Part shown: positions 21,675 through 43,225 of the stretch, piece after piece
Layout of the letters: each line of letters starts with the position of its first letter
Position numbering within the stretch: the stretch's first letter is position 1
Origin: Caldifarciminota bacterium
GTDB taxonomy: Bacteria > Hydrothermota > Tepidihabitantia > SM23-42
Assembly: GCA_020343455.1 (NCBI GenBank)
Contig: CP070795.1
Coordinates: 1 to 44,140 of the forward strand
Length of the DNA: 44,140 nucleotides
Reading direction: 5' to 3'
Program-made: the position numbers and the translations under genes
Notes under the pieces: model-generated
The model's input: the letters and a program-made list of their open reading frames with translations, nothing else
Told to the model about the DNA's origin: nothing
Databases searched by the model: none

Positions 21675-22121
21675 ATGATTAAAATGACTTCAAATAGCGA
21701 ACACTCGAAGGAGCTCCTCGCGGAGAAGGGCCTCAAACCTACCTACCAGCGTCTCATGATACTCGACTATCTGCAGGAACACAGGAAAGAACATCTAACC
21801 GTGGAGAAGATCTATACCGCTCTCTCCGGAGAAATGCCCCTGCTTTCAATGACAACGGTCTACAATGCGCTCAGCTCATTCCTCAAGGCAGGGCTCGTCT
21901 CAGCGATAACGATCACAGGGACAGAGGTGAGGTATGATTTCCTGACCGAACCGCACCACCACTTCCTCTGCAGAATGTGCGGACGCATTTCGGACGTCGA
22001 CGTAAAGTGTCCGGTTGCTGAACGAAAGAGCATGAAGGGGTATCTCATTGAGGAAGTACACGGCTATTTCAAGGGGCTCTGTAAAGAATGTTTGAAGCGA
22101 CAGCGTAAACAACAAGCGTGA
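21675..22121 (+). CDS. Second Fur-family regulator (Fur/PerR type)
   Basis: The 148-residue protein has a winged helix (SMTTVYNALSSFLKAGLV), the EPHHHFLCRMCG metal region and a C-terminal CKECLKRQ pair. The histidine cluster and the LKPTYQRLMILDYL start resemble PerR-like members. It leads the array of rubredoxin, flavodiiron protein and ferritin-like genes, so peroxide- or iron-sensing control of these genes is plausible. It differs clearly from the fur gene at 19212, so they are not a recent duplication. The start is fixed by the leaderless promoter. Confidence 0.85.
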   Translation: MIKMTSNSEHSKELLAEKGLKPTYQRLMILDYLQEHRKEHLTVEKIYTALSGEMPLLSMTTVYNALSSFLKAGLVSAITITGTEVRYDFLTEPHHHFLCRMCGRISDVDVKCPVAERKSMKGYLIEEVHGYFKGLCKECLKRQRKQQA

Positions 22122-22155
22122 CAATCGTGTCTAATTTTAGTAAGGAGGAAATAAC

Positions 22156-22380
22156 ATGAAGGAAAAGGTCGAAAAGGTCTTGGGTGAAATAAGACCGAAT
22201 CTCGAAGCTGATGGTGGAAACGTTGAATTGGTTGAAGTCACTGATGATGGTGTCGTCAGGGTGAAACTAACCGGTGCCTGTGGAACATGCCCGATGAGCA
22301 CGCTAACGCTCAAGATGGCGATCGAGAAAACTCTGAAGGACAAGATACCCGAAGTTCGAGCGGTCGAGCAGGTCTTCTAA
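22156..22380 (+). CDS. Nfu-type iron-sulfur scaffold domain (NifU C-terminal)
   Basis: The 74-residue stand-alone domain has the conserved [13 protein letters not shown] start and CGTCP motif (Cys42, Cys45), which binds a 4Fe-4S cluster between two subunits for delivery to apoproteins. TAAGGAGG lies eight bases upstream of the ATG. It heads the run of iron-dependent oxygen-defence genes and complements the IscU-like proteins at 28774 and 42800. Confidence 0.92.
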
Positions 22381-22416
22381 AAACCCGCATCAAACTGAAA
22401 GTCAGGAGATAACTCA

Positions 22417-22578
22417 ATGTCGAAACACAAATGCACGGTCTGTGGATATGTATATGATCCAGCAAAAGGCGACCCTGTTTCCGGGATAGAGCCCGGTACT
22501 CCATTCGAACAGATCCCGGCCGACTGGGTATGCCCGGTATGCGGTGTTGGCAAGGATCAGTTTGAGAAGGTGGACTGA
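22417..22578 (+). CDS. Rubredoxin
   Basis: The 53-residue protein has both rubredoxin knuckles (CTVCGY at 6-11 and CPVCG at 39-43), the YDPAKGDP loop and Trp37, giving one Fe(SCys)4 centre. It is the expected electron donor to the flavodiiron protein, whose ATG overlaps its stop codon (TGATG). AGGAG precedes the start. Confidence 0.97.
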
Positions 22579-23765
22579 TGCCCCCCCGCAAAATAAAAGA
22601 CGGTGTGTACTGGGTAGGAACAACTCACTGGGACCGAAGGCTTTTCGATGCACTGATACCGCTGCCCGACGGCACTACTTATAACGCATACCTGATTAAA
22701 GGCAGCAATAAGACGGTACTGATCGATTCTGTCGATCCCGCTAAAGAGTCAGAGCACATTGCCAATCTTAAAAGTCTCAATGTCGATGAACTACACTACA
22801 TAATAGCGAACCACGCAGAGCAAGATCATTCTGGCGGAATACGGAGACTCGTCGATACCTATTCCACGGCGAAAGTGGTAACCAACGAGAAATGCAGGAA
22901 TATGCTCATCGATCTGTTGCACATACCCGAAGAAAAGTTCGTCGTGGTGAAAGACAATGATACTTTATCGCTTGGTGACCGCACGCTCGAATTCATAACC
23001 GCACCGTGGGTGCATTGGCCGGAAACCATGCTTACTTACCTGAGTGAAGATAAGATACTATTCCCTTGTGACCTATTCGGCTCGCATCTTGCGACGAGTG
23101 ATCTTTACGCCTTTGACGAAGCACGCGTATATGAATCCGCCAAACGCTACTATGCCGAGATCATGATGCCTTTTAGAACGGTGATCCAGAAACACCTCAA
23201 GAGACTTGAAGGATACAAAATCGAAATAATCGCACCCAGCCATGGCCCCTTACACAATACACCGTCCTTTATCATCGATGCCTACCGCGACTGGACATCA
23301 GATATTGTGAAGAATGAAGTCATCCTCCCCTACGTATCGATGCACGGCAGCACCGAGGCAATGGTCAACCATTTGGTAGCGGCGCTCATCAAGCGAGGCG
23401 TCGCGGTTAAACCGTTCAACCTGACGAAGACCGACATCGGTGAACTCGCGATCTCGCTCGTCGACGCGGCAACGATCGTCATTGCCACTCCAACAGTACT
23501 GACGGGTCCGCATCCGGCTGCGGTATACGCCGCGTATCTCGCAAACATATTGCGCCCTAAGACTAAATACGCCTCGGTCATCGGTTCTTTCGGCTGGGGC
23601 GGCAAGATGCTTGAACAGATTACGGGCATGATCGGAAATCTGAAAGTCGAATTGATCACACCAGTAATCATCAAAGGACATCCCAAGAGTGCAGATTACG
23701 AGACACTCGACGCGCTCGCCGATACCATCGTTGAAAAACACGAGGCACTGGGTATCCGCAAGTAG
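22578..23765 (+). CDS. fprA: Flavodiiron protein (rubredoxin:oxygen oxidoreductase, FprA type)
   Basis: This 395-residue class A flavodiiron protein has a beta-lactamase-like di-iron domain and a C-terminal flavodoxin domain starting near residue 250 (PYVSMHGSTEAM). All iron ligands are present at the classical spacing: His79, Glu81, Asp83, His146, Asp165 and His226. It reduces O2 to water (and, in some members, NO to N2O) with electrons from rubredoxin, the gene just upstream. This marks the host as an anaerobe that meets oxygen. Confidence 0.97.
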   Translation: MPPRKIKDGVYWVGTTHWDRRLFDALIPLPDGTTYNAYLIKGSNKTVLIDSVDPAKESEHIANLKSLNVDELHYIIANHAEQDHSGGIRRLVDTYSTAKVVTNEKCRNMLIDLLHIPEEKFVVVKDNDTLSLGDRTLEFITAPWVHWPETMLTYLSEDKILFPCDLFGSHLATSDLYAFDEARVYESAKRYYAEIMMPFRTVIQKHLKRLEGYKIEIIAPSHGPLHNTPSFIIDAYRDWTSDIVKNEVILPYVSMHGSTEAMVNHLVAALIKRGVAVKPFNLTKTDIGELAISLVDAATIVIATPTVLTGPHPAAVYAAYLANILRPKTKYASVIGSFGWGGKMLEQITGMIGNLKVELITPVIIKGHPKSADYETLDALADTIVEKHEALGIRK

Positions 23766-23963
23766 TATGCAAACCTCGTCGATATACTCTACTCTGTGGG
23801 TTTCCGCAAGCGTGGTGATTCCAGGTGCTGATCGAGCAAGATCTTTAGCCTGAAGCATATGAGAGAGTCAACGTGGAGGCAACGCCTTGATACTGGAGGG
23901 CGATCAGCCTTTGTATATCGAAGATAGCTCATGGCAAGGGTATGAAACCAAAGGAGGTCAGTA

Positions 23964-24455
23964 ATGAGCGTTTTTGAACCGAGTGAAGTATTTCAATTCG
24001 CGATTCGCATCGAGCAGGGTGGGGAGAAATTCTACCGAGAGATGGCCAAGAAATTGCCCGACGCTGAGGTCAAGAAACTCTTCTCTGCCCTCGCCGAAGA
24101 AGAAGTCAAACACAAGAAAATATATGAAGGCATGGCTGCAAGGATGGAAGAGTACGAACCGGTTGAAAGCTACCCCGGAGAGTATTTTGCCTATCTACGT
24201 GCGTATGCGGACAATATCATATTCACACCACAGAAAATGGATGAGAAGATCAAGAGCATTACCGATGCGCGGTCGGCGCTCGAATTCGCAATCGATCGCG
24301 AGCTTGATTCCATTCTGTACTATGAAGAAGCCAAGAAGCTCGTGCCGAAAAATCAGCGAGCTTCAATAGATGAGATAATAGAAGAAGAAAGGCGGCACTT
24401 CGTTAAACTCAGCAAGTGCAGTGGCAATACAGCTGCCTGCTTGAGCAAGGATTGA
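23964..24455 (+). CDS. Ferritin-like (erythrin-type) di-iron protein 1
   Basis: The 163-residue four-helix protein has two Glu/ExxH half-sites: an early Glu in IRIEQGGEKFY with EEEVKH, then a Glu in IDRELDSILYY with EEERRH. This is the di-iron site of rubrerythrin-like proteins, which reduce peroxide. It lacks the C-terminal rubredoxin domain of classical rubrerythrin and ends in a short tail with two Cys. AAAGGAGG precedes the ATG. A 198-base gap separates it from the flavodiiron gene, with nothing clear in it. Confidence 0.85.
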   Translation: MSVFEPSEVFQFAIRIEQGGEKFYREMAKKLPDAEVKKLFSALAEEEVKHKKIYEGMAARMEEYEPVESYPGEYFAYLRAYADNIIFTPQKMDEKIKSITDARSALEFAIDRELDSILYYEEAKKLVPKNQRASIDEIIEEERRHFVKLSKCSGNTAACLSKD

Positions 24456-24525
24456 ATTGATTGAGCCGTAGTTATACTTTATACGGATGTTCAAAGAGTT
24501 TTAGAGGATAACATAGGAGGAAAAA

Positions 24526-24945
24526 ATGGCATCCAAAGAGATACTCGATATGCTGAACAAAGCTATCGCCAGGGAACTGCAGGTGACAATACAGTACATG
24601 TGGCAGCACGTCATGTGGAAAGGCGTCAAGGGGTTTGCCGTTAAAGATGCGCTCAAGAGCGCCGCGATAACGGAAATGAAGCATGCCGAGGAAATTGCCG
24701 AACGCCTGACTTATTTGGGCGGTACGCCAACGACAAAACCTGAACCGATATTCGTCGGCGGAACGCTCAAGGAAATGCTAGAGCAAGACAGAAAGGATGA
24801 AGAGGGAGCGATCGCACTTTACAAACAAGCGATAGCCATGGCAGAGAAGGCAGCAGATCCGGTGACCAAGAGAATGTTCGAAAAGATTCTCGCCGATGAA
24901 GAGGAACATCACGACACTTTCTCAGGTCTGCTTGAAGAGATCTAA
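24526..24945 (+). CDS. Bacterioferritin-like ferritin-superfamily protein
   Basis: The 139-residue four-helix protein differs from its ferritin-like neighbours: it follows the bacterioferritin/Dps-like pattern, with RELQVTIQYMWQH, EMKHAEEIAERLTYLGGTPT and DEEEHHDTF. Each half provides a carboxylate and an ExxH-type ligand. The role is iron oxidation and storage or detoxification. It is a little shorter than typical Bfr (about 155). AGGAGG stands eight bases before the ATG. Confidence 0.85.
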   Translation: MASKEILDMLNKAIARELQVTIQYMWQHVMWKGVKGFAVKDALKSAAITEMKHAEEIAERLTYLGGTPTTKPEPIFVGGTLKEMLEQDRKDEEGAIALYKQAIAMAEKAADPVTKRMFEKILADEEEHHDTFSGLLEEI

Positions 24946-25035
24946 ATAAAGAATAGAAATAGGCGGCCCAGTCCGTCGGCCTGCAGACGATCCTGCAAGT
25001 CAGATAGCAGTAAAGTGGTCAGGAGGGCGTGTTGA

Positions 25036-25061
25036 GGGAGAGGGATTCGATGCCCTCTCCC
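25036..25061. terminator. Perfect 9-bp GC-rich hairpin between ferritin-like genes
   Basis: GGGAGAGGG (25036-25044) pairs with CCCTCTCCC (25053-25061) around an eight-base loop in the 163-base gap after the bacterioferritin-like gene. No T-run follows. It resembles in composition the hairpin between the pilin genes and may terminate, or partly block, transcription. Confidence 0.5.
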
Positions 25062-25108
25062 CCACACAATCTCTTGTATACGGTCAATGAAGCAGAAAGA
25101 GGTGAAGA

Positions 25109-25636
25109 ATGGCAGAAATAACCAGCGAAATCGTAGAAATAATCAGAGAGTCATTGAAACTTGAATTGAGCGGAAAGAGTTTCTTTGAAAACGTCGCCAA
25201 TGCTACGCACAACGAACTTGGCAAGAAGATGTTCCGGAAATTAGCCGACGATGAAGCGCAGCACCTGAAGGTTTTCAGCGAGATCTTCACAACGATGGTC
25301 GGCGAGGATTGGAGAAAACACGTTGGCGATCTCGAAAAGAATGAGAAAGCACCGATGATCGAAGCTCTCACGAAAAAAGTCGCAAGTGCCGGAAAGGAAG
25401 ACAGAGCCAGCGAGCTCGAAGCAATAAGCATTGCCATGGATCTCGAAAGAAATGCAATCGACTTCTTCTCCGGAGCAGCAGGGAAGACAACGGATGAGAA
25501 GGCGAAAGAGATATTCAAGAAGATCGCCGACGAAGAAAGGCTACACTACGACCTGCTCCAGGCGCAGCACGATCACATAACGAATTCCGGGTTCTGGTTC
25601 GATATCGCAGAATTCAGAATGGATTCGAAATACTGA
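25109..25636 (+). CDS. Ferritin-like (erythrin-type) di-iron protein 2
   Basis: The 175-residue protein has two internally similar halves. Each has a Glu followed about 30 residues later by ExxH: LELSGKSFF with DDEAQH, and DLERNAIDFF with DEERLH. Rubrerythrin family, no rubredoxin domain. It is a paralogue of the proteins at 26451 and 34192, sharing the KKMFRKLADDE-type stretch. Predicted role: peroxide reduction or iron handling in the cytoplasm. AGAGGTG precedes the ATG. Confidence 0.85.
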   Translation: MAEITSEIVEIIRESLKLELSGKSFFENVANATHNELGKKMFRKLADDEAQHLKVFSEIFTTMVGEDWRKHVGDLEKNEKAPMIEALTKKVASAGKEDRASELEAISIAMDLERNAIDFFSGAAGKTTDEKAKEIFKKIADEERLHYDLLQAQHDHITNSGFWFDIAEFRMDSKY

Positions 25637-25667
25637 GGAATGAAGGACCACACCCGTTGTCATTTGT

Positions 25668-25684
25668 GACAATGAGTCATTGTC
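25668..25684. promoter_or_regulatory. Perfect 8-1-8 palindrome, possible Fur/PerR-type operator
   Basis: GACAATGA-G-TCATTGTC is a perfect inverted repeat. A second, overlapping one (TTGTCA-4-TGACAA, 25657-25672) makes three half-sites in a row. The 7-1-7 core ACAATGA-G-TCATTGT has the geometry of Fur-superfamily operators, and two such regulators are encoded just upstream. It lies 13 bases before the next start codon. I did not find a convincing -10/-35 pair around it. Confidence 0.45.
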
Positions 25685-25696
25685 CACTTGGTACGC

Positions 25697-26356
25697 ATGC
25701 TTCGTGAAACGTTAGAATCACTACGCAGTGGTATCAACGCAAATGGTTACTCAGTCTACATTCACAGAACAGTACCGGGCAGATTCCAAGAAGAGCAGAA
25801 TGCGGAATTACACTGTCGGACGAGAACCGACCGAACATACCTCGGTAGCGCAAAGATCTTCTTTGGCCGGCCGCCCGATTACTCCCCCTGGGTCGAATTA
25901 TTTGACATCAATGCGTCGATAGAAATCGAGAACAGCATCGTAGACTATTTCGGATCTCGGTTGGAAGAAGTTATTCTGGATGCCTTCAGCGCAAGCCTCA
26001 ACGCCGGTGCAAAGCTATTCGTCGAATATTACACGGACAAGGAAACGATGCTACTTCTACAGAGAGGATTCCCTGTCGCACTCAGCAGATTGGGTTTTGA
26101 AATGCTGACACGCGGGTTCACCTGGTTCAAAGATTGGTATTTCCCCGAAGGTTTCATGGAAGGCGGTTGGAAATTGCAGGGTGAGAAACCGATCAGCGAT
26201 GAAGCAAGACAGAGGCACATGAAGCTAATCACGCAGGAAACGACCAGCATCGGCGAGAGTATGCCGAGCGATGATATCCCTCTTGAATTCAAGGAAAGAG
26301 CTCTCGCGCGCTTAGAACGAATCCGAAACCTCCCGATACCATACTGCGGGAAATGA
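25697..26356 (+). CDS. Conserved protein of unknown function, possibly DUF1122
   Basis: The 219-residue protein has no membrane segments. The middle part carries a long acidic helix (LEEVILDAFSASLNAGAKLFVEYYTDKET) and the end a striking WFKDWYFPEGFMEGGWKLQGEKP stretch that reminds me of DUF1122 proteins of archaea and hyperthermophiles. That match is from memory and uncertain. It sits alone between ferritin-like genes, behind the palindrome, so it may belong to the same stress response. The ATG at 25697 is used; there is no Shine-Dalgarno sequence. Confidence 0.6.
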   Translation: MLRETLESLRSGINANGYSVYIHRTVPGRFQEEQNAELHCRTRTDRTYLGSAKIFFGRPPDYSPWVELFDINASIEIENSIVDYFGSRLEEVILDAFSASLNAGAKLFVEYYTDKETMLLLQRGFPVALSRLGFEMLTRGFTWFKDWYFPEGFMEGGWKLQGEKPISDEARQRHMKLITQETTSIGESMPSDDIPLEFKERALARLERIRNLPIPYCGK

Positions 26357-26450
26357 TCCATTCTATGGACAAGACTCGTAACGGCATGGAGAAATAAATG
26401 TTCCGTTTTCTGAGGTGTCTAATTGTTAGGGGGAATTGAAAGGAGCATGT

Positions 26451-26957
26451 ATGGAACGATCAAAATCTATCGAAGGTTTGCGAGTAGCCCTTCAGACCGA
26501 ACTTAACGGCATTGAGTTTTATAGAATAGCAGCAGAAAAGACTGCGGACGCAAAGGGTAAACGTGTATTCCAGATGCTCGCCAATGATGAGATCATACAC
26601 TACAAGGCACTGCAGAAAGAGTACTCATCATTGCTTGACAAAGAAGAGTGGCAGAAGATCGACCTTGGAACAATTAGCGCATACGACGGCGAAAGTCCGA
26701 TATTCTCCGCTGAAATGAAAAAACGTGCCGGCGAAATGCATTTCGAGGTTTCTGCCCTCAGCATCGGTGCGTTGCTCGAATCGAATTCTATCGATTTCTA
26801 TCGCAAAATGAAAGAGAAAAGCGACGACCCATCGGCAAGAGCATTGTATCAGCAGTTACAACACTGGGAAGAAAATCATCTCGAGGCAATAACCAGACAA
26901 CTCGAATTGCTCAAGGAAGATTTCTGGGCAGAACAGCGGTTCTCTCCTTTGTTCTGA
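26451..26957 (+). CDS. Ferritin-like (erythrin-type) di-iron protein 3
   Basis: The 168-residue two-half four-helix protein has TELNGIEFY with NDEIIH, then LLESNSIDFY with WEENH, completing a rubrerythrin-like di-iron site. The second half is more diverged than in its paralogues at 25109 and 34192. The ATG at 26451 is chosen because AAAGGAG is six bases upstream; a TTG at 26436 would overlap that site. The stop overlaps the TusA-like start (TGATG), linking this protein to the sulfur-relay genes downstream. Confidence 0.83.
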   Translation: MERSKSIEGLRVALQTELNGIEFYRIAAEKTADAKGKRVFQMLANDEIIHYKALQKEYSSLLDKEEWQKIDLGTISAYDGESPIFSAEMKKRAGEMHFEVSALSIGALLESNSIDFYRKMKEKSDDPSARALYQQLQHWEENHLEAITRQLELLKEDFWAEQRFSPLF

Positions 26958-27220
26958 TGAATGACACCGGGACTGCCATGGACGACGAGCAAGTACCGAA
27001 GAAGACAGTAGACTGCGTTGGGTTGTACTGCCCGCAACCGCTATTCCAGACACGGGAGGGCATGGACGCGATCCAGATCGGCGAAATACTCGAAGTTCTT
27101 GCCGATGATCCTGCCGCTGAAGAAGACATAAAACGGTTCGCTAAGAGAACCGGCCACGAAATCGTCAAATTCGAGAAGCAGCACGATACAATGCGTTTCT
27201 TGTTAAGAAAAACGAAGTAG
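26957..27220 (+). CDS. TusA/SirA-family sulfur carrier
   Basis: The 87-residue protein has the TusA fold and the hallmark CPQP motif (Cys25, in VDCVGLYCPQPLF) followed by an acidic loop. TusA proteins carry sulfur as a persulfide on this Cys to thiouridine synthesis, molybdopterin or dissimilatory sulfur enzymes. An extra Cys20 is also present. It is coupled to the ferritin-like gene upstream and followed by a DsrE-family protein and the IscS/IscU pair, which points to a sulfur relay feeding iron-sulfur assembly. Confidence 0.88.
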   Translation: MNDTGTAMDDEQVPKKTVDCVGLYCPQPLFQTREGMDAIQIGEILEVLADDPAAEEDIKRFAKRTGHEIVKFEKQHDTMRFLLRKTK

Positions 27221-27229
27221 GAGTGAACA

Positions 27230-27592
27230 ATGAACAAAAAGAAACGGATTCTTTATGTGCAAACGGACGACGACCCTGAACGCCAGTACTCTCCCTTGGT
27301 CCTAGCGCAGACTGCAAAAGCGATGGATATCGACGCTCAGGTGTACTATCTCGGACAGGCACTGCGTGTGCTGAAGCCCGATACAGCTGCGCAGATAAAG
27401 ATCGGTTCCTTCCCCAATCTCGCTGAAATGATTTCAAAGACGATGGAAATGGGCATCGATATTTACGTATGCGAAGCCTCGAAGCAGATGTTAGGATGGG
27501 ACACAGTGGAATTGCTGCCTGGACTCAAGATAGTAGGCGCAGGTACACTCAACGACCTTGCGCTCGATGCATCGGCGACCATGTGGTTCTGA
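27230..27592 (+). CDS. DsrE-family sulfur-transfer protein
   Basis: The 120-residue protein has the Rossmann-like DsrE/DsrF pattern: a first strand KRILYVQTDDDPE, helices with QTAKAMDIDAQVYY, and a conserved Cys81 in IYVCEASKQMLGW, the usual persulfide site. Such proteins pass sulfur to or from TusA partners. AGGAG lies upstream, and the gene begins nine bases after tusA. It reaches to 17 bases before the desulfurase homologue. Confidence 0.85.
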   Translation: MNKKKRILYVQTDDDPERQYSPLVLAQTAKAMDIDAQVYYLGQALRVLKPDTAAQIKIGSFPNLAEMISKTMEMGIDIYVCEASKQMLGWDTVELLPGLKIVGAGTLNDLALDASATMWF

Positions 27593-27608
27593 TGCGAGGC
27601 CACGAACA

Positions 27609-28772
27609 ATGAGCGTCTACCTTGATTACCAGTCATCGAAACCGGTGGACCCGAGGATCGTCGAGGCCATGCTTCCGTACTTCCACGACAAGTTCGGTAA
27701 TCCTTCCTCACTGCATGCAGTAGGCGACACTGCGACCGAAGTGCTCGAGTCATCACGGGCAGCAGTCGCGCATTTCATCGGCGCTGAATCAGATGAAATA
27801 ATTTTCACCTCCGGCGCGACCGAGTCGAATAACCTTGCCCTGATCGGCCACGCATTAAGAAACAAAGACAAAGGCAACCACATCATCATCTCTGAGATCG
27901 AGCATATATCGATTCTTAACATCGCCAAATATCTAGAGAAGAACGGCTTTGTGGTTTCGAGGGTTCCGGTCGACCAATTCGGCAGGATCGCCATCGAAAA
28001 GATATCCGAGCGCGTTACCGATAAGACGATCATGGTATCGATCGGGTACGCGAACAATGAAATAGGCACGATTCAACAGATGGAGACCATTGGTAGATTT
28101 TGCCGCGACAAAGGCATCACATTCCATACCGATGCCGTTGCTGCAGAGGGACTGATCCCGATCGACGTCAAGCGCGATAGTATCGATCTGATGGCTTTAT
28201 CATCCAATGATGTATACGGTCCCCAAGGGCTGGGTGTTCTTTACGTGAAGAAAGGCATTCGGATCAATCCCCTGAATATTGGCGGAGGCCAAGAACGCGG
28301 TCTGCGGTCCGGGACAGAGAACATAGCCGCCATCGCCGGTATGAAAAAGGCTGTAGAGATCATGGGCGCGGAGATGGCCACAGAAACAAAGCGCCTTCAG
28401 CAGTATCGAAACAGACTGATAGAAAAAGTTCTTGATCTTGTGCCGAGATCGTATCTCAACGGTCACCCGACCCTGCGTCTGCCTAACAACGCACACTTCC
28501 GGTTCGAAGGAATAGAAGGCGAATCATTGCTACTGTCCTTCAAAGAAAGAGATATTGCGGTGTCGACCGGTTCAGCATGTAGTTCGAAGACGTTGGAACC
28601 TTCGCACACGCTCATTGCTCTGGGCCTGCTCCACGAAGAAGCGCACGGTTCGCTCCAGATTACATTCGGCAGGTTCAACAAGGACAGTGACTTCGAAACG
28701 TTGCTCGAAACGCTACCGCAGATAGTGAAGCGTTTAAGAAAACTGTCACCGCTATACAAGTGGGAGGTCTAA
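27609..28772 (+). CDS. iscS: IscS/NifS homologue lacking the PLP-binding lysine
   Basis: The 387-residue class V aminotransferase fold has FTSGATESNN, FHTDAVAAEG and the mobile catalytic Cys324 in STGSACSSKT. The Schiff-base Lys, normally in S-x-H-K-x-x-G-P-K-G, is missing: the segment reads SSNDVYGPQG, with Asn200-Asp201 for His-Lys (codons AAT GAT at 28206-28211). Without that Lys normal cysteine desulfurase chemistry is not expected. An Asp at this site is known in the IscS of the archaeon Archaeoglobus fulgidus. The protein may supply the catalytic Cys as cluster ligand or sulfur acceptor for the adjacent IscU, with sulfur from TusA/DsrE or sulfide. The gene stops one base before the IscU-like gene. 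Confidence 0.93.
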   Translation: MSVYLDYQSSKPVDPRIVEAMLPYFHDKFGNPSSLHAVGDTATEVLESSRAAVAHFIGAESDEIIFTSGATESNNLALIGHALRNKDKGNHIIISEIEHISILNIAKYLEKNGFVVSRVPVDQFGRIAIEKISERVTDKTIMVSIGYANNEIGTIQQMETIGRFCRDKGITFHTDAVAAEGLIPIDVKRDSIDLMALSSNDVYGPQGLGVLYVKKGIRINPLNIGGGQERGLRSGTENIAAIAGMKKAVEIMGAEMATETKRLQQYRNRLIEKVLDLVPRSYLNGHPTLRLPNNAHFRFEGIEGESLLLSFKERDIAVSTGSACSSKTLEPSHTLIALGLLHEEAHGSLQITFGRFNKDSDFETLLETLPQIVKRLRKLSPLYKWEV

Positions 28773-28773
28773 G

Positions 28774-29550
28774 ATGAAATCGACACAGTACAGTGAAAAA
28801 GTCCTGGACCATTTCAGAAAACCGCGGAACGTGGGGACCCTCGAAGGCGACGACGTCGTCATCGGCAGAGTGGGAAATCCGGTTTGCGGCGATCTGATGG
28901 AATTCTACGTAAAAGTGAAAGACGACCGCATCGAAGATATCAAATTTAAGACGTTCGGTTGCGGTTCCGCCATTGCAACGGCAAGCATGATCACGGAACT
29001 CGCAAAGGGAAAGTCGATCGATGAGGCGTTCAAGATCACAAGGCAGGACGTAGCCGATGAACTCGATGGCCTGCCGCCCATCAAGATGCACTGCAGCAAT
29101 CTTGCCGCCGATGCACTGCGTAATGCACTCAATAATTACCAGAAAAAAAAGAAGCCGTCAGAACCGTCGGATACACAAGGTGGCGGCAGTAGGGAGATTG
29201 CCGGTGCGGACCGATTCATAGGCAACGGAGTATTCACCGAGATCACCGATCCCTCGGCGCTCAAAGATAAAAGGGTCATGGTCATGGAAGACGGTGACCG
29301 TTCTCTGAATATCGCCCTCGAACTGACGAAATACACACAGCGTGTAGTATATGTGACGGCCAGGAAAGACCTCCCGGCTGGCAATCTCTCGGATCGAGTG
29401 GCCGGTTCGAAGATAAAGATCCTGTTCGAATCAGAGGTCTTGGAGATCAAGGGCTTGAACACCGTGGAAAAGGTACTCATACACGACCTCAACGAAGATG
29501 AGGAGTATGAACTCTTTGTCGATTGCATCATCCTCCCAGCCCGGAAATGA
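28774..29550 (+). CDS. iscU: IscU scaffold fused to a thioredoxin-reductase-like domain
   Basis: Residues 1-123 form a full IscU/NifU-N scaffold with Cys38 (followed by Gly39-Asp40), Cys63 and Cys107, the ligands for assembling 2Fe-2S clusters. A Lys/Pro/Gly-rich linker (about 124-145) leads to a C-terminal domain (about 146-258). That domain follows the NAD(P)-binding half of thioredoxin reductase: KDKRVMVMEDGDRSLNIALELTK for the Rossmann loop, VVYVTARKDL, an LFESEVLEIKG strand and a closing ELFVDCIILPA. The glycine-rich loop is degenerate (MEDGDRS for GGGDSA), so nucleotide binding is doubtful. GGGAGG precedes the start. It is co-transcribed with the Lys-less IscS. Confidence 0.88.
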   Translation: MKSTQYSEKVLDHFRKPRNVGTLEGDDVVIGRVGNPVCGDLMEFYVKVKDDRIEDIKFKTFGCGSAIATASMITELAKGKSIDEAFKITRQDVADELDGLPPIKMHCSNLAADALRNALNNYQKKKKPSEPSDTQGGGSREIAGADRFIGNGVFTEITDPSALKDKRVMVMEDGDRSLNIALELTKYTQRVVYVTARKDLPAGNLSDRVAGSKIKILFESEVLEIKGLNTVEKVLIHDLNEDEEYELFVDCIILPARK

Positions 29551-29586
29551 CAGCGGTTTTCAGCGGCTGCACAGAGCGACGGTAAT

Positions 29587-32259
29587 ATGATAAAGAAGGT
29601 CCGGCTCAACATCTCAGGGATGACCTGTGCGAGTTGTGTGCGGATCATCGAGGATTCTCTGAGCAAACACGAAGGCGTCCAGAACGTGCAGGTGAATTTG
29701 GCATCGGAGAGTGCAAGCATTGAATACGACGACCGGAGGACATCGGTTGCCGACCTGAAGAAAGCAATCGGCAAGGTCGGCTATGTAGTGAGACAAGAAA
29801 ATGCGGTCCTGAAGGTTGGCGGAATGACCTGCGCGACCTGCGTCGCCACGGTCGAAAACGCACTGAAGAGGACCGGCAAGGCCGCAGATGTCACCGTGAA
29901 CCTTGCGTCCGAAAAAGCATACGTCTCGTTCGACCCCAGTGTAACCGACTTAACCATACTGAAAAAAGCGATCGAAGATTCCGGTTACAAGTACCTCGGG
30001 CTCGAGGGCGAAGAAACCGCCGAGATCGAAAAGACTGCCCGAGAGGCTGATCTAGTGCAGAAACGAAATCGTTTCATCTTGGGATTCGCAGTCGGCATAC
30101 CATTGATGATCCTGATGTATGTACACATCCATTTGCCCTTTCCCATGGCGTACCTCATGTTCGCTGTAACGACACCGGTCTTCATCTACGTCAGTCTTCC
30201 TATATTCACGGCTGGTTATCGGGCGCTCAAGAATAGAAATCTCAACATGGATGTCATGTATTCAATGGGGATCGGTGTAGCTTACGTATCAAGTCTCCTG
30301 GGTACGTTCGAAATCCTTCTTTCGCGAGATTTCCTCTTTTACGAGTCGGCCCTCATGCTTGCGTCGTTCCTCACCTTCGGACGGTATCTCGAAACGAGGG
30401 CAAAGGGCAAGACCTCGGACGCCATCAGCAAATTGATCGGCCTGCAGCCACGTGAGGCGGCAGTCGTTCGGAATGGCAGAGAAGAGACCATATCTGTCGA
30501 AGACGTTCTCATTGACGACGAAGTCATCGTGAAGCCGGGAGAAAGAATACCGGTCGACGGAATGGTCATCGACGGCTCAAGCTACGTGAATGAATCGATG
30601 ATAACCGGCGAACCTGCTCCAGTGCGCAAAAGTCCTAAAGACAACGTGGTTGGCGGCACCGTGAACAAGAACAGTGTCCTTAGAATCAGGGCAACCCGGA
30701 TTGGAAAGGATACCGTTCTTGCTCAGATAATCAGACTCGTCGAAACGGCACAGGGCTCGAAACCGCCCGTACAACGTATTGCCGATCGCGTGGTCAGTTA
30801 CTTCATCCCCGTCGTGCTGCTTATTGCCATCACATCTTTTGCTGTTTGGTATTTCATCATCGGTAACTCACTACTCTTTTCTCTTACGCGCCTGATATCG
30901 GTGCTGGTCGTTGCTTGCCCGTGTGCGCTCGGCCTGGCCACCCCCACCGCCGTCACTGTCGGCATCGGACGAGGCGCTGAGCTGGGAATACTGGTCAAGA
31001 ACGGCGAAGCACTCGAATTATCGGAGAAGATCACAACAGTAGTGTTCGACAAGACGGGTACCTTGACCAAAGGTTTGCCTGAGGTCACGGAGATTATCAC
31101 TTTTGGCGTCAGCGAACCGAGGTTGCTCGAGATCGCAGGGAGTCTAGAGAAGGATTCACTCCACCCCATCGCCGAAGCGATCGTCCGCGCAGCCGAAGGC
31201 AGAAAGGTCGCTGTGGCAAAGATAGAGAATTTCGACACAGTGGAAGGCAAAGGAGTGAAAGGGATCCTGCATGGAGAGGCGGTGCTGGCCGGTAGTAGAG
31301 CACTCATGGAAGACAACCGTATCCCGCTTCCCGAGGGTGCTGAGGGTCGTATTACCGCGATCGCAGAAACAGGCAAAAGCATAACGTTCGTTGCATATGC
31401 CGGGGAAATGGTCGGAGTGATCGGAGTGGCGGATTCCCTCAAAGAATCGGCGATCAAGGCCGTCGAGCATATGAAAGATCTCAGACTCGATGTGATCATG
31501 GTAACCGGGGACAACAGAAGAAGCGCGGAAACCATGGCAAAGAAGATAGGGATATCGCGAGTGCTCGCCGAGGTCCTTCCCGACGACAAGGCAAAAGAGG
31601 TAAAACGGCTGCAAGAGGCGAAGGAAATTGTGTCCTTCGTAGGAGACGGCATAAACGACGCTCCGGCGCTTGCTCAGGCAGATGTCGGCATCGCAATTGG
31701 CACCGGGACCGATGTCGCGATCGAGACCGGAGATATAATACTGATGAAAGGAGAATTGACCGACGGTGTTGCGGCTATTCAATTGGCGAGGAAGGTAATG
31801 TCGCGTATCAAGCAGAATCTATTTTGGGCTTTTGCATATAATACGGCGCTCATCCCGGTGGCGGCCGGCTTACTCTATCCCGTATTCGGCATAGACTTCA
31901 GGCCCGAACTTGCCGGTTTCGCAATGGCAATGAGCTCCGTCACAGTGGTGACTCTGTCGCTGATGCTGAAAGGATACACTCCGATGGCAAAAAGAACAAC
32001 GAAGAGAAAGGAAGATACCGGCGAAACGCTGAATGAGAAGGGACAGCAAGAGTTGGAGACAGAGCGACAAGGGCAAACCGGCGATGAAAAGGAGGTAATC
32101 ATGGCAATCGATCCAATATGTAAGATGACAGTCGATGAGAAAACTGCACAATACAAGAGCGATTTTAGAGGAAAGACGTACTACTTCTGTGCCCCCGGCT
32201 GTAAGAAAAAGTTTGACGAAAATCCGAAGGAGTACGCTGAGAAGTCGAAATCTGAATAA
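29587..32259 (+). CDS. copA: Cu(I)-exporting P-type ATPase (CopA) continuing into a YHS domain
   Basis: The 890-residue open frame has two N-terminal heavy-metal-associated domains (GMTCASC, Cys14/17; GMTCATC, Cys82/85) and the transmembrane CPC motif (444-446). The phosphorylated Asp488 is in DKTGTLTKG, with SLHPIA and [10 protein letters not shown] later. The Cu(I)-specific residues YN and MxxSS stand in the last two helices ([18 protein letters not shown]). It pumps Cu+ out of the cytoplasm. After an acidic, Gln/Glu-rich linker the frame runs on into a 52-residue YHS domain starting at Met839, which has its own ribosome binding site. No clear ribosome binding site precedes 29587. Confidence 0.95.
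32101..32259 (+). CDS. YHS-domain protein, possible internal translation product of the copA frame
   Basis: An ATG at 32101, in frame with copA, is preceded at five bases by a perfect AAGGAGG (32089-32095). It would yield a free 52-residue YHS protein: MAIDPICKM start, a [15 protein letters not shown] core with the metal-binding Cys residues, and a KEYAEK end. YHS domains bind Cu or other metals and are often fused to copper ATPases or encoded beside them. Either the fused protein, the free protein or both are made; the strong internal site favours at least some free product. Confidence 0.6.
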
Positions 32260-32288
32260 ATGGAAGGATATTCACCAGAGGAGAACAT

Positions 32289-32576
32289 ATGGACGTAAGA
32301 CACGTGGAAGGCCGGAAAAAAGGTAACGTCATGCTCTACGCTCTGAGCACGTGCGTCTGGTGCAAGAAGACAAAGAGACTGCTCAATACCTTGAACATTG
32401 CATACGACTACGTAGATGTCGACCTGGTCGGTGGAGACGAGAGAGCCAAGATCAAGGAAACCGTCCTGAAGTGGAACCCGAACGGATCATACCCCACTAT
32501 CGTTATTGACGAGAAGCAGAGTATAGTCGGTTACGATCCGGAGAAGATAAAAGAGGTACTGGGTAATGACCAATAG
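32289..32576 (+). CDS. Glutaredoxin-like protein
   Basis: The 95-residue thioredoxin-fold protein has an N-terminal CVWC active site (Cys22, Cys25), a YPTIVID segment with the cis-Pro, and a C-terminal [13 protein letters not shown] helix, as in NrdH/Grx-like proteins. AGAGGAG stands before the ATG. It overlaps the ferredoxin:thioredoxin reductase gene by 11 bases, so it is the natural candidate to receive electrons from that enzyme. Confidence 0.88.
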
Positions 32577-33078
32577 CGACAGAAACCGCGCTGAGCAAGA
32601 TATTATATACAAGAAATTGAGCGCCGATGCCGAATCGGGCGGATACCACCTCAATCCAGACGTGGAATTCACAATGGACCTCATCGATGGACTGGTTACA
32701 AACGAAAAACGATATGGCTATCCCTCATGCCCTTGCCGTCTGGCATCTGGCAAGAAGAACGGCGACCTCGATATTGTTTGTCCTTGCGATTACCGCGATG
32801 CCGACCTCAATGATTACGACACGTGCTATTGTGGGCTGTATGTGTCAAAACGTGTCATCGAAGGTAAGAAAGAGATAGGAAAGATACCGGAACGTAGGCC
32901 ACCGCATAGAACGAATAGTGCATCAGAGTTGTCGCCGACCATGCAATCCCTTCCCTACCCTGTCTGGAGGTGCCGCGTCTGCGGTTACCTTTGCGCAAGG
33001 AAAGAGCCGCCAGAGGCCTGTCCGGTATGTAAAGCAGGAAAAGAACGGTTCGAACTATTCATTCCCGGGCCGTCATAA
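32566..33078 (+). CDS. Ferredoxin:thioredoxin reductase catalytic chain fused to a rubredoxin-like domain
   Basis: Residues 1-105 are an FTR catalytic domain with the three Cys pairs of its 4Fe-4S and disulfide site: SCPCR (55, 57), VCPCDYRD (72, 74) and TCYCGLY (87, 89; Tyr for the usual His). After a linker, residues 131-170 form a rubrerythrin-type rubredoxin domain (WRCRVCGY, Cys136/139; [13 protein letters not shown], Cys152/155). The enzyme uses one-electron carriers to reduce disulfides in thioredoxin-like partners; the extra domain may allow rubredoxin-type electron entry. The gene overlaps the glutaredoxin gene. Confidence 0.9.
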
Positions 33079-33117
33079 CGGATGTCTAAACTTGCAGAAT
33101 CAATTTTAGGAGGAAAG

Positions 33118-33243
33118 ATGGCGAACGTTCAAAAAGCAGGTGAAGTATATAGATGCGAAATATGCGGCAATGTCGTCGAGGTTAAAGAAGCAGGCGGCGG
33201 TGAACTGGTCTGCTGCGGCAAGCCGATGCAATTGGTAAAATAG
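33118..33243 (+). CDS. Desulforedoxin (short rubredoxin-like Fe protein)
   Basis: The 41-residue protein has the Dx pattern: [12 protein letters not shown] (Cys13, Cys16), then adjacent Cys32-Cys33 in LVCCGKPM, binding one Fe(SCys)4. In many anaerobes this domain is the N-terminal part of desulfoferrodoxin; here it is a separate gene 48 bases before the superoxide reductase. It should pass electrons to that enzyme. AGGAGG precedes the ATG. Confidence 0.93.
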
Positions 33244-33291
33244 TTCAGCTGATTGCAGTAATACTTCATAAAACAGAGAAAGGAGAACACA

Positions 33292-33687
33292 ATGCAAGAA
33301 CTTTCTAAGATCTTCCAATCAGCCGATTGGAAAAAAGAAAAGCATGTACCCGTCATCGAGGCAGCTGATAAGGTGAGGAAAGGTGAGAATGTAGGCGTAA
33401 CCCTCTCGGTGGGAAAAGAGATCCCGCACCCGAACACGACCGAGCATCACATAGCGTGGATGGACATCTATTTCCAGCCGAGTGAAGGCAAATTCCCGTA
33501 TCACATCGGGCGCTTCGAATTCTCGTCGCACGGTGCCTCGACCGATGGACCGAATACAAGCACGATCTTTACACACCCAACAGTATCGGTGACCTTCAAG
33601 GCCGAAAAATCTGGAACGTTGTTCGCATTGTCCTACTGCAACATCCATGGTCTGTGGATAAATTCGCACGAAATAACCATAGAATAG
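33292..33687 (+). CDS. Superoxide reductase (neelaredoxin type, 1Fe-SOR)
   Basis: The 131-residue protein shows the full catalytic centre: Glu16-Lys17-His18 (EKHVPVIE), His46, His52 and the CNIHG motif (Cys116, His119), giving the Fe(His)4(Cys) site. It reduces superoxide to peroxide without making oxygen, the strategy of anaerobes. The desulforedoxin domain is absent from this chain and encoded just upstream. The peroxiredoxin downstream can remove the product. AAAGGAG precedes the ATG. Confidence 0.96.
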   Translation: MQELSKIFQSADWKKEKHVPVIEAADKVRKGENVGVTLSVGKEIPHPNTTEHHIAWMDIYFQPSEGKFPYHIGRFEFSSHGASTDGPNTSTIFTHPTVSVTFKAEKSGTLFALSYCNIHGLWINSHEITIE

Positions 33688-33721
33688 CGTCCGGAGGGAA
33701 CATAAACAAAGGAGGCATATA

Positions 33722-34180
33722 GTGGTGAAGATCGGCGATAAAGCGCCTGATTTCGTGCTAAAAGACCACAACACGAACGATGTGTTGATCTCTGCTCTGT
33801 CCGGACAGAAGATACTACTATCATTCCATCCCCTCGCCTGGACAAAAGTCTGCGCCGAGCAGATGCAGTCACTGGAAAATAACATTCACGATTTCGGTAA
33901 GTTGAATACAATCGCGCTGGGGGTGAGCGTTGATACCGTGCCTTCCAAGAAAGCCTGGGCAAAGGAATTGGGAATCGAGCATACAAAACTCCTCTCCGAT
34001 TTCTGGCCTCATGGTGCAGCAGCCAGGAAGTACGGTATCTTCCGGGAAAAAGATGGATTTTCAGAACGTGCGAACATAATAATCGATGAAAAACAGCATA
34101 TAGTATTCGCAAAGATCTATGAAATCGCACAACTGCCGGACATGGAGCAAATATTGGATTTCATCAGGAAAGATCAGTGA
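33722..34180 (+). CDS. One-Cys peroxiredoxin (AhpE/BCP-like)
   Basis: The 152-residue thioredoxin-fold protein has the PxxxTxxC peroxidatic motif (Pro37, Thr41, Cys44) and no other Cys, so an external thiol must resolve it, plausibly the glutaredoxin or double-thioredoxin protein nearby. It reduces the peroxide formed by the superoxide reductase. AAAGGAGG stands upstream; GTG 33722 is taken as start, with GTG 33725 equally possible. The conserved Arg appears in the FREKDGFSERANIIID segment. Confidence 0.92.
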   Translation: MVKIGDKAPDFVLKDHNTNDVLISALSGQKILLSFHPLAWTKVCAEQMQSLENNIHDFGKLNTIALGVSVDTVPSKKAWAKELGIEHTKLLSDFWPHGAAARKYGIFREKDGFSERANIIIDEKQHIVFAKIYEIAQLPDMEQILDFIRKDQ

Positions 34181-34191
34181 AAGGAGCAAAA

Positions 34192-34677
34192 ATGAACGAA
34201 GACACAAAAGCAAAAATAGATACTCTGTTGACAGATGCAATGAACGCCGAAGCACAGGCAAAGAAGTTCTATATTGAAGCTGCAGCAAAAGCGTCGAGTA
34301 ACGCCGGCAAGAATCTCTTCAATGAACTGGCCGATTTTGAACAGGGGCATTATGACCGACTCCAAAGAATAATCGAAGCACGAGGAAAAGGGCTCAACCT
34401 TGCCGGTATCACGGCGCCACAAAAGATCCCTACGAAATCTGAAGTCGAAGGACAATTCGAGCCGAACAAGGATGAAATAGTCTCAGTCCTGACGCTCGGC
34501 ATCGAGGCTGAAAAGAAAGCCAGAGCGAAGTACCTGGAGATATCGAAGATGTTCGATGACGAAGAATCAAAGGCAATCTTCATTAATATGGCTGAAGAGG
34601 AACGGAAGCATCAATCCATACTCGAGGACCAGTTCTACAGTATTTCGAACAAAGGTACAATAATCTGGGGAGACTGA
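34192..34677 (+). CDS. Ferritin-like (erythrin-type) di-iron protein 4
   Basis: The 161-residue four-helix protein has MNAEAQAKKFY with DFEQGH and GIEAEKKARAKY with EEERKH, two half-sites of a di-iron centre. It is a paralogue of the proteins at 25109 and 26451 but lies with the superoxide reductase and peroxiredoxin, so peroxide removal is the likely job. No rubredoxin domain. ATG 34192 is chosen for its AAAGGAG; a GTG at 34177 overlaps the ribosome binding site. Confidence 0.85.
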   Translation: MNEDTKAKIDTLLTDAMNAEAQAKKFYIEAAAKASSNAGKNLFNELADFEQGHYDRLQRIIEARGKGLNLAGITAPQKIPTKSEVEGQFEPNKDEIVSVLTLGIEAEKKARAKYLEISKMFDDEESKAIFINMAEEERKHQSILEDQFYSISNKGTIIWGD

Positions 34678-34686
34678 CCAACGTCA

Positions 34687-35250
34687 ATGGAAGTCAAGGA
34701 AGCAATAGAAAAAAGAAGAGCCTACAGATCGCTCGCGCCGGTCGACATAGACGACGAAACCGTGGCAAGTCTGGCAGAGAGCGCGCGGTTATTCTGCTCA
34801 TGCTTCAACAATCAACCGTGGCGGTATGTATTCGTCCGTGATAGAGAGATACTGAACAAGATGCATGAAGCGCTTTCCCGGGGTAATGAGTGGGCGCGAG
34901 CGGCATCGCTCATCATTGCAGTCTTCAGTAAACCCGAACTAGACTGCCTCATCAGGGAGAGGAAGTATTATCTCTTCGACACAGGAATGGCCACGGCAGC
35001 AATGATCCTCCGCGCCACCGAACTCGGACTCGTCGCCCATCCGATCGCCGGGTTCAGTCCTAAAAAGACCAAGGAGATTCTCGGCATACCTGAAGAAATG
35101 GAAGTAATAACGTTGGTCATAGTGGGAAGACGTTCGACTACGATCAATCCGTTACTTTCGGAAAAACAAGCTGAGGCGGAAAGAGAAAGGCCGGAAAGGA
35201 TCCCTCAGGCCAGATTCGCGTTCAGAGATCGATACGAGGACCGTTCCTAA
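34687..35250 (+). CDS. Nitroreductase-family flavoprotein
   Basis: The 187-residue FMN protein has the classic start EAIEKRRAYRSL, a FNNQPWRYVFV phosphate/FMN segment, GMATAAMILRATELGL and an LVIVGR strand near the end. Nitroreductase-like enzymes use NAD(P)H to reduce nitro compounds, quinones, flavins or other acceptors; the substrate is unknown. It begins nine bases after the ferritin-like gene and shares its operon. The C-terminal tail is highly charged. Confidence 0.88.
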   Translation: MEVKEAIEKRRAYRSLAPVDIDDETVASLAESARLFCSCFNNQPWRYVFVRDREILNKMHEALSRGNEWARAASLIIAVFSKPELDCLIRERKYYLFDTGMATAAMILRATELGLVAHPIAGFSPKKTKEILGIPEEMEVITLVIVGRRSTTINPLLSEKQAEAERERPERIPQARFAFRDRYEDRS

Positions 35251-35299
35251 ACCCGACACACTGATTACGGTCTAATTGGCGTGGAACAAAGGAGGATTT

Positions 35300-35971
35300 G
35301 TGGCTGTCATAGATGAGAAGACGAAAGAGCAAGTAAAGAATATGCTCAAGGATCTGAAGAACGAGGTCACCCTGGTCGTATTCACACAGGAGTCGCTGAT
35401 CTCCACGGGCGCTAAGGAGTGCGAGACATGCAAGGATAACCGCCTGCTCATGGAAGAAGTAGCATCCCTCTCCGACAAAATAAGAGTCGAAGTCTTCGAC
35501 TACGCGAAGGATAAGAACAAGGTGGAGGAGTACGGGATCGATAAGATACCGGCAACGGTCATCAAAGGTGACAGGGATAGAGGGATTAGAATATTCGGCC
35601 TGCCGGCCGGCTACGAATTTCCAACGTTGCTCAGCGCAATAAAATTGGTCTCTGCAGCAGAATCAGATCTGAGCGACGGATCACGTACATCAATGAAGAA
35701 GATCACCAAACCGGTTCACATACAGGTTTTCGTTACGCTCACATGTCCGTACTGCGCTTCAGCGGCACACCTGGCTCACCGGTTGGCGCACCAAAGCGAA
35801 ATGGTAAAAGCCGCCGTCATCAACGCGCAGGAATTCCCTCAATTGGCTCAGAAATATAACGTATTCGCCGTGCCCAAGATAGTAATCAACGAGTCGATTC
35901 AATTCGAAGGCGCGTTACCTGAAGAGGGTTTCGTCGCCAAGGTTCTCGACTCGCAGAATTCCGAAAAATGA
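35300..35971 (+). CDS. Double-thioredoxin-fold protein disulfide oxidoreductase (PDO/Grx-like)
   Basis: The 223-residue protein has two tandem thioredoxin folds. The first has a CETC site (Cys41, Cys44) and KIPATVI cis-Pro; the second has CPYC (Cys149, Cys152) and FAVPKIVI. This two-unit layout is typical of PDO proteins of archaea and thermophilic bacteria and of AhpF N-terminal domains. It may recycle the peroxiredoxin. GTG 35300 is used because AAAGGAGG precedes it at the right distance; a TTG at 35276 is unsupported. It closes the oxygen-defence array. Confidence 0.88.
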   Translation: MAVIDEKTKEQVKNMLKDLKNEVTLVVFTQESLISTGAKECETCKDNRLLMEEVASLSDKIRVEVFDYAKDKNKVEEYGIDKIPATVIKGDRDRGIRIFGLPAGYEFPTLLSAIKLVSAAESDLSDGSRTSMKKITKPVHIQVFVTLTCPYCASAAHLAHRLAHQSEMVKAAVINAQEFPQLAQKYNVFAVPKIVINESIQFEGALPEEGFVAKVLDSQNSEK

Positions 35972-42770: not shown

Positions 42771-42799
42771 ACACCCCCGTGGCGCATCGCCGTGACCAA

Positions 42800-43225
42800 A
42801 TGATTGATACAAACAGGATTTCGGATTTCTATTCAAAGACAGTGCTTGAGCACATGACGGCGCCGCGTAATTGGGGTGTTACGCAGGACTGCGATGGTTT
42901 TGGACGCGCCGCAGGTTCCTGTGGAGACACGATGGAGATAGCGTTGAAAATCAAGGACGACTCGATCCTCGCGTGCACCTTTGAGAGTGAAGGCTGCGGT
43001 GCGACCATAGCGTGCGGCAGCATCGTCACCCAGATGGCAACGGGCAGAAGAGTGGCAGAGGCACGGAGGATAGATCAGAAGGCGATTCTCGAATATTGCG
43101 GAGGTTTGCCAGATAAGAACGGACACTGTGCGTTGCTCGCTGCAGAAGCACTTCAACGGGCGATCGATGATCATTATCAGATGCAGCGCGCGCCTTGGAA
43201 GAAGTTATATCGGACCGCAAGATAG
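42800..43225 (+). CDS. Second IscU/NifU-N-like iron-sulfur scaffold
   Basis: The 141-residue scaffold domain has all three ligand Cys in their motifs: AGSCGDTMEI (with the partner Asp), SEGCGATIACGS and NGHCALLAAEAL. It is diverged from the IscU domain at 28774 and has no C-terminal fusion. It stands away from any cysteine desulfurase, between treT and a phosphoesterase, so its partner is unclear. ATG 42800 is used; a GTG at 42779 would add seven residues. Neither has a clear ribosome binding site. Confidence 0.85.
   Translation: MIDTNRISDFYSKTVLEHMTAPRNWGVTQDCDGFGRAAGSCGDTMEIALKIKDDSILACTFESEGCGATIACGSIVTQMATGRRVAEARRIDQKAILEYCGGLPDKNGHCALLAAEALQRAIDDHYQMQRAPWKKLYRTAR

Follow-up and report, generated by a model that had tools for sequence, protein, structure and literature searches.

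An IscS homologue that has lost the lysine needed for cysteine desulfurase chemistry, along with neighboring active-site residues, is encoded in a tightly linked set of four genes, TusA–DsrE–IscS(Asp)–IscU, found in many anaerobes across bacterial and archaeal phyla; the cysteines that a sulfur relay would use are invariant. The setting, with two sulfur carriers and a scaffold protein, suggests that sulfur is handed to IscS(Asp) rather than made by it. Our preferred reading, to which we assign a probability of about 0.5, is that TusA and DsrE feed this inactive IscS, which would serve as a platform for persulfide relay and cluster ligation rather than as a cysteine desulfurase. In the window (the whole stretch of DNA analyzed, 44,140 nucleotides), the relevant features are:

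26957..27220, + strand: TusA-family sulfur carrier (Pfam TusA, 1.6e-24; best PDB match the TusA of the E. coli IscS–TusA complex, 3LVJ)
27230..27592, + strand: DsrE-family sulfurtransferase (Pfam DsrE, 4.2e-16; PDB 3mc3, 1.2e-10)
27609..28772, + strand: IscS homologue without the PLP lysine, 387 aa, ATG at 27609
28200..28232, + strand: SSNDVYGPQGL, with Asn200-Asp201 replacing His-Lys (Asp in 112/113 of the clade)
28578..28580, + strand: codon of loop Cys324 (E. coli Cys328), invariant (113/113)
28774..29550, + strand: IscU fused to a degenerate thioredoxin-reductase NADPH-type domain (Pfam NifU_N, 1.9e-48; TIGR01292, 1.1e-14, residues 141–253)

An aspartate at the lysine site

The IscS homologue has the aminotransferase class-V fold (Pfam Aminotran_5, 2.7e-72) and scores below the NCBIfam cut-offs for both NifS (470.5 vs. 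530.75) and IscS (401.6 vs. 643.2). The PLP Schiff-base lysine of the SxHKxxGPKG motif is absent: the stretch around the site is LSSNDVYGPQGLG, with codons tca tcc aat gat at 28200–28211 for S198 S199 N200 D201, giving SSND(200–201)VYGPQG where Lys-type enzymes have S(G)HKxYGPKG. The mobile-loop segment, VSTGSACSSKTLEP, is intact and includes STGSACSSKT with Cys324. An earlier sequence-only reading had described this same combination of a lysine-to-aspartate change with an intact cysteine loop, and its residue numbers are correct. It had also named a sequencing error at 28206-28211 as one thing that would overturn it, but the same Asn-Asp is found in L039 (CP070705), a relative of 94% identity from a separate assembly, and 29 of the 147 genomes of the phylum contain matches to a strict DNA pattern for the site; none contains a match to the reversed control pattern. 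Purifying selection acts on the gene (dN/dS 0.082, window vs. L039); together with the independent relatives carrying the same residues, this rules out both a sequencing error and a pseudogene. Apparent internal stops in some relatives, considered as possible recoding, proved to be the ordinary termination codon, close to the C-terminus (SPL*K).

Distribution and phylogeny of Lys-less IscS

Among solved structures, the best match to the window IscS is A. fulgidus IscS 2 (4EB5, 437 bits), which reads SSNDIYGPKG at the site; the 4R5F form of the same protein, with Lys at that position (D199K), is also among the best, and the E. coli and human enzymes score at ~314–320 bits. That A. fulgidus IscS carries the same change, as the sequence-only reading had stated, can be seen in this closest structure, and the protein is reportedly without desulfurase activity (PMC7585200).

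A scan of species-representative genomes with two peptide patterns yielded 470 relatives. In the best 80 of these, the lysine site is occupied by Asp in 79 and by Ala in one, a count biased by the presence of the motif in one of the two patterns. A motif-free search nevertheless gave the same split: all relatives read above ~50% identity have Asp, and those below ~48% have Lys or another residue. In a 156-sequence tree, which was a quick build with several long Lys-type branches, the Asp forms, with the Ala form included, make up one clade (SH-aLRT 100); A. fulgidus IscS (4EB5) falls within it, apart from the Lys-type enzymes. Its sister is a second Lys-less group (support 99), in which the site is occupied by Ser, Thr, or Gln. 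Since all Lys-less forms are on one side of one branch (support 92), a single loss of the lysine would fit this sample.

The Asp clade is represented in WOR-3, Aminicenantes, Actinomycetota, Deltaproteobacteria, Asgard archaea, Archaeoglobus-like archaea, and others. The change had been presented as one now seen in a bacterial operon; the operon here is bacterial, but once the residue is mapped onto an alignment, as had been proposed, it is no bacterial oddity but rather the trait of one large clade that includes archaea (112 of 113 sampled members). The second Lys-less group (L226, L229, L235, L239, and L243, with Gln-Ser; L233, L237, and L240, with His-Thr; L232 and L242) occurs for the most part in other families within the same class. 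Several of its loci are adjoined by glutaredoxin, IscU, and a ferredoxin–thioredoxin-reductase-like gene, and none by TusA or DsrE; nine of its ten genomes carry a Lys-type match as well.

Active-site residues across the Asp clade

Residues were counted in the 113 sampled members of the clade at the equivalents of Lys206, His205, Gln183, Asn155, His104, Asp180, and Cys328 in E. coli IscS numbering. Besides the Lys206 equivalent (Asp in 112, Ala in one), the His205 equivalent is Asn in all 113, the Gln183 equivalent is Ala in 108, and the Asn155 position is relaxed, with Ser in 54. The stacking His (His99; E. coli His104) and the loop Cys (Cys324; E. coli Cys328) are present in 113/113, and Asp175, below the pyridine nitrogen (E. 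coli Asp180), in 112/113. The rest of the fold, which had been called intact, is therefore so at these last three positions but not at the other three. Such a pattern is to be expected if PLP may still bind while amino-acid chemistry is no longer selected, and it is near certain that the Lys-dependent chemistry has been lost. A natural variant with Ala for Asp (SSNAFYGP; L105, 6001–7149, a close relative of L090) could be useful for asking whether the Asp itself matters.

IscS(Asp) might conceivably still be a working desulfurase of unusual chemistry, with PLP bound without a Schiff base, or with another lysine or Asp201 taking over. The retained PLP-pocket residues His99 and Asp175 would be in keeping with this, as would the presence of PLP in 4EB5 (PMC9769115, Figure 1 legend) and the title of a 2013 paper on the A. 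fulgidus protein, which calls it an unusual desulfurase. However, PMC7585200 cites later A. fulgidus work as showing no activity, and the Gln183, His205, and Asn155 positions have been lost or relaxed along with the lysine, which makes an active enzyme very improbable.

The TusA–DsrE–IscS(Asp)–IscU module

As the sequence-only reading had it, the Asp-type IscS has its own IscU and sulfur carriers in the operon: TusA, DsrE, and IscU genes flank it, and this gene order is found again in groups as distant as WOR-3, Asgard archaea, and Archaeoglobus-like genomes. Within 2.5 kb and on the same strand, TusA is found near 95, DsrE near 74, and IscU near 98 of 100 Asp-type loci; the corresponding counts for Lys-type loci, many of them from genomes that also carry the Asp module, are 1, 0, and 23 of 61. 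The loci are related by descent rather than independent, and represent ~10 phyla by record title, which for metagenome bins can err. Beyond the four genes, no neighbor is common to most of the loci. The sole Lys-type-pattern locus with TusA (L281) reads HKALYGPQG and may not be an IscS; its protein possibly belongs to a different aminotransferase-V family.

The catalytic Cys25 of TusA (CPxP) is present in 77/77 module sequences, Cys81 of DsrE is invariant (63/63), and the counterparts of E. coli TusA Arg27, Asp45, and Asp51, which matter there for IscS binding or transfer (PMC2854127), are conserved in module TusA. Most module TusA sequences (71/77) have a second conserved cysteine, Cys20, five residues ahead of the catalytic one (DCVGLxCPxP), which aligns with Ala in E. 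coli TusA.

This linkage bears on the alternative that IscS(Asp) is a structural scaffold only, holding IscU and lending Cys324 to the cluster while free sulfide provides the sulfur, with TusA and DsrE serving, for example, tRNA or cofactor thiolation. Such a role would suit the A. fulgidus protein, which is cited as having no desulfurase activity and whose cysteine is a cluster ligand in the crystal (PMC7585200 and PMC9769115), and DsrE was not found near about a quarter of the Asp-type loci. The frequency of TusA at these loci in both bacteria and archaea, and its near absence from Lys-type loci, would on the other hand be hard to explain if its target were elsewhere, and we regard a scaffold-only function as rather unlikely.

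IscU and its reductase-like extension

In the window, IscU starts directly after the iscS(Asp) stop. Its ligand residues C38, D40, C63, H106, and C107 are invariant in the module. A reductase-like extension is present here and in 72/80 loci; plain IscU is found in Archaeoglobus-like genomes and a second WOR-3 group. The extension matches PDB 2q7v (1.9e-8). AlphaFold2 gives two confident domains joined by a loose linker (pLDDT 88.5, pTM 0.52), for which Foldseek finds the 4EB5 IscU and thioredoxin reductases. A redox CxxC was found in none of 72 extensions and the glycine-rich dinucleotide motif (GGGxxA) is not intact, being mostly xxGxxS, so to judge by these motifs the extension is unlikely to be a reductase. 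Its sequence evolves more quickly than that of the IscU portion, yet is constrained (dN/dS 0.17 vs. 0.06). Another IscU/NifU_N-type protein, of 148 aa, is encoded at 42779–43225, away from any iscS.

Lys-type paralogues and Asp-only genomes

A search for a second, Lys-containing desulfurase, suggested along with the original observation, was successful: a normal IscS with the motif LSGHKFYGPKG is encoded on the same 1.9-Mb contig, 29 bases from an IscU of its own. Sulfur for cluster assembly need not bypass cysteine altogether, since this Lys-type IscS could charge TusA, and the sulfur may still derive from cysteine one step upstream.

The situation is different in nine Archaeoglobus-like genomes (G319, G289, G253, G227, G334, G237, G246, G391, and G372), five of them on a single contig, where the Asp form is the sole Aminotran_5 protein at E<1e-30. 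The Asp module is then their only IscS-type machinery, and something else must mobilize cluster sulfur. One of them, G319, has two Asp-type copies and carries TusA–DsrE–IscS–IscU; two further relatives, G299 and G396, each have a second, weaker Aminotran_5 match. Lys-type enzymes had at first seemed to be missing from 14 of 50 carriers, but this was mostly an artifact of a narrow pattern, many of them reading HKMCGP, HKLHAP, or similar; the absence holds for the Archaeoglobus-like genomes, and possibly for Helarchaeota G195.

Genomic surroundings

In this WOR-3 family the module is part of an island (window 21675–35971) that includes Fur, Nfu, a flavodiiron-type protein, several rubrerythrin/ferritin-like proteins, CopA, glutaredoxin, and desulfoferrodoxin-like and peroxiredoxin genes. 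A copper-type P-ATPase with a short cysteine-containing C-terminal domain is encoded right after IscU (29587–32259); several relatives have a small stand-alone ORF that matches its C-terminal end.

Genes for oxygen and iron stress on both sides, and a Lys-type iscSU elsewhere in the genome, could point to a regulator or stress-time partner, an inactive IscS that modulates the normal IscS/IscU or senses persulfide or iron and has no main role in assembly. Archaeoglobus-like genomes, however, have no Lys-type enzyme to regulate, and the island is mostly missing outside WOR-3; a regulatory role is accordingly quite improbable.

A possible sulfur relay

In the preferred reading, that of a relay and ligand platform, four steps can be envisaged; we infer the first two, together with the direction of sulfur, its donor and source, and whatever the fused reductase-like domain may contribute. 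DsrE Cys81 and TusA Cys25 would be loaded with sulfane sulfur, for which either the Lys-type IscS of the cell or the metabolism of sulfide, polysulfide, or thiosulfate could be the source. TusA would then dock on IscS(Asp) in the manner of the E. coli pair, in which the TusA Cys comes within 4.5 Å of the IscS loop Cys (PMC2854127), and pass its sulfur to Cys324, in the reverse of the known E. coli direction. The loop would swing to IscU and hand over the sulfur, serving as an extra ligand during [2Fe-2S] formation on Cys38/63/107, after which the cluster would depart with IscU.

Several points count against this scheme. In E. coli, TusA and IscU bind IscS by turns and never together, and sulfur moves from IscS to TusA (PMC2854127), which by analogy would weigh against a reverse relay; a pure relay has no obvious need of the retained His99 and Asp175; and DsrE was not found near about a quarter of the loci. 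More broadly, the module could represent an unnamed, widespread Fe–S pathway running from TusA/DsrE through an inactive IscS to IscU, opposite to that of E. coli, and in Archaeoglobus-like archaea the only IscS-type route and a cysteine-independent one; this we advance tentatively, as a possibility somewhat short of even odds.

The loss of the lysine was already known; the bacterial breadth and the carrier-linked module are, provisionally and as far as searched, new. The part of the literature covered contains no paper linking TusA, DsrE, IscU, cysteine desulfurase, and archaea, and one review of protein persulfidation mentions TusA, DsrE, IscS, and IscU. In 4EB5 a cluster is held between IscS and IscU although A. 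fulgidus IscS cannot make sulfur; the conserved association with TusA and DsrE, among bacteria and archaea alike, provides concrete candidate sulfur donors, and four small proteins would be enough to test them. The annotation as cysteine desulfurase is probably wrong for many genes.

Comparison with known systems

The E. coli complexes IscS–TusA (3LVJ) and IscS–IscU (3LVL) have the fold and the loop Cys in common with the window, and their partners are likewise TusA and IscU, but E. coli IscS has Lys206, makes sulfur from cysteine, and passes it to TusA. The Lys-type loci sampled here likewise differ from the Asp module in having iscS without TusA beside it. The minimal MIS system of methanogens (MisS–MisU), named in PMC12442378, resembles the window as an IscS/IscU pair without other isc genes, but would differ in that its MisS is described as a cysteine desulfurase.

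For the IscS1/IscU1 pair of M. acetivorans (MA0808/MA0807), PMC7585200 reports no catalytic Lys, an enlarged IscU1 (24.2 kDa), clustering with four genes "of unknown function," and inclusion bodies of the recombinant protein; on this description, the isc1 cluster would fit the TusA–DsrE–IscS–IscU module. A. fulgidus, the source of the closest solved structure, differs from the window in its plain IscU without the extension and in having no Lys-type IscS, of which the window genome has one, but its IscS–IscU (4EB5, 4EB7, 4HVK; D199K, 4R5F) is like the window's in sequence (51% identical), in SSND and STGSACSSKT, and in its partner IscU, and the A. fulgidus-like genome G319 has TusA–DsrE upstream of IscS, as in the window.
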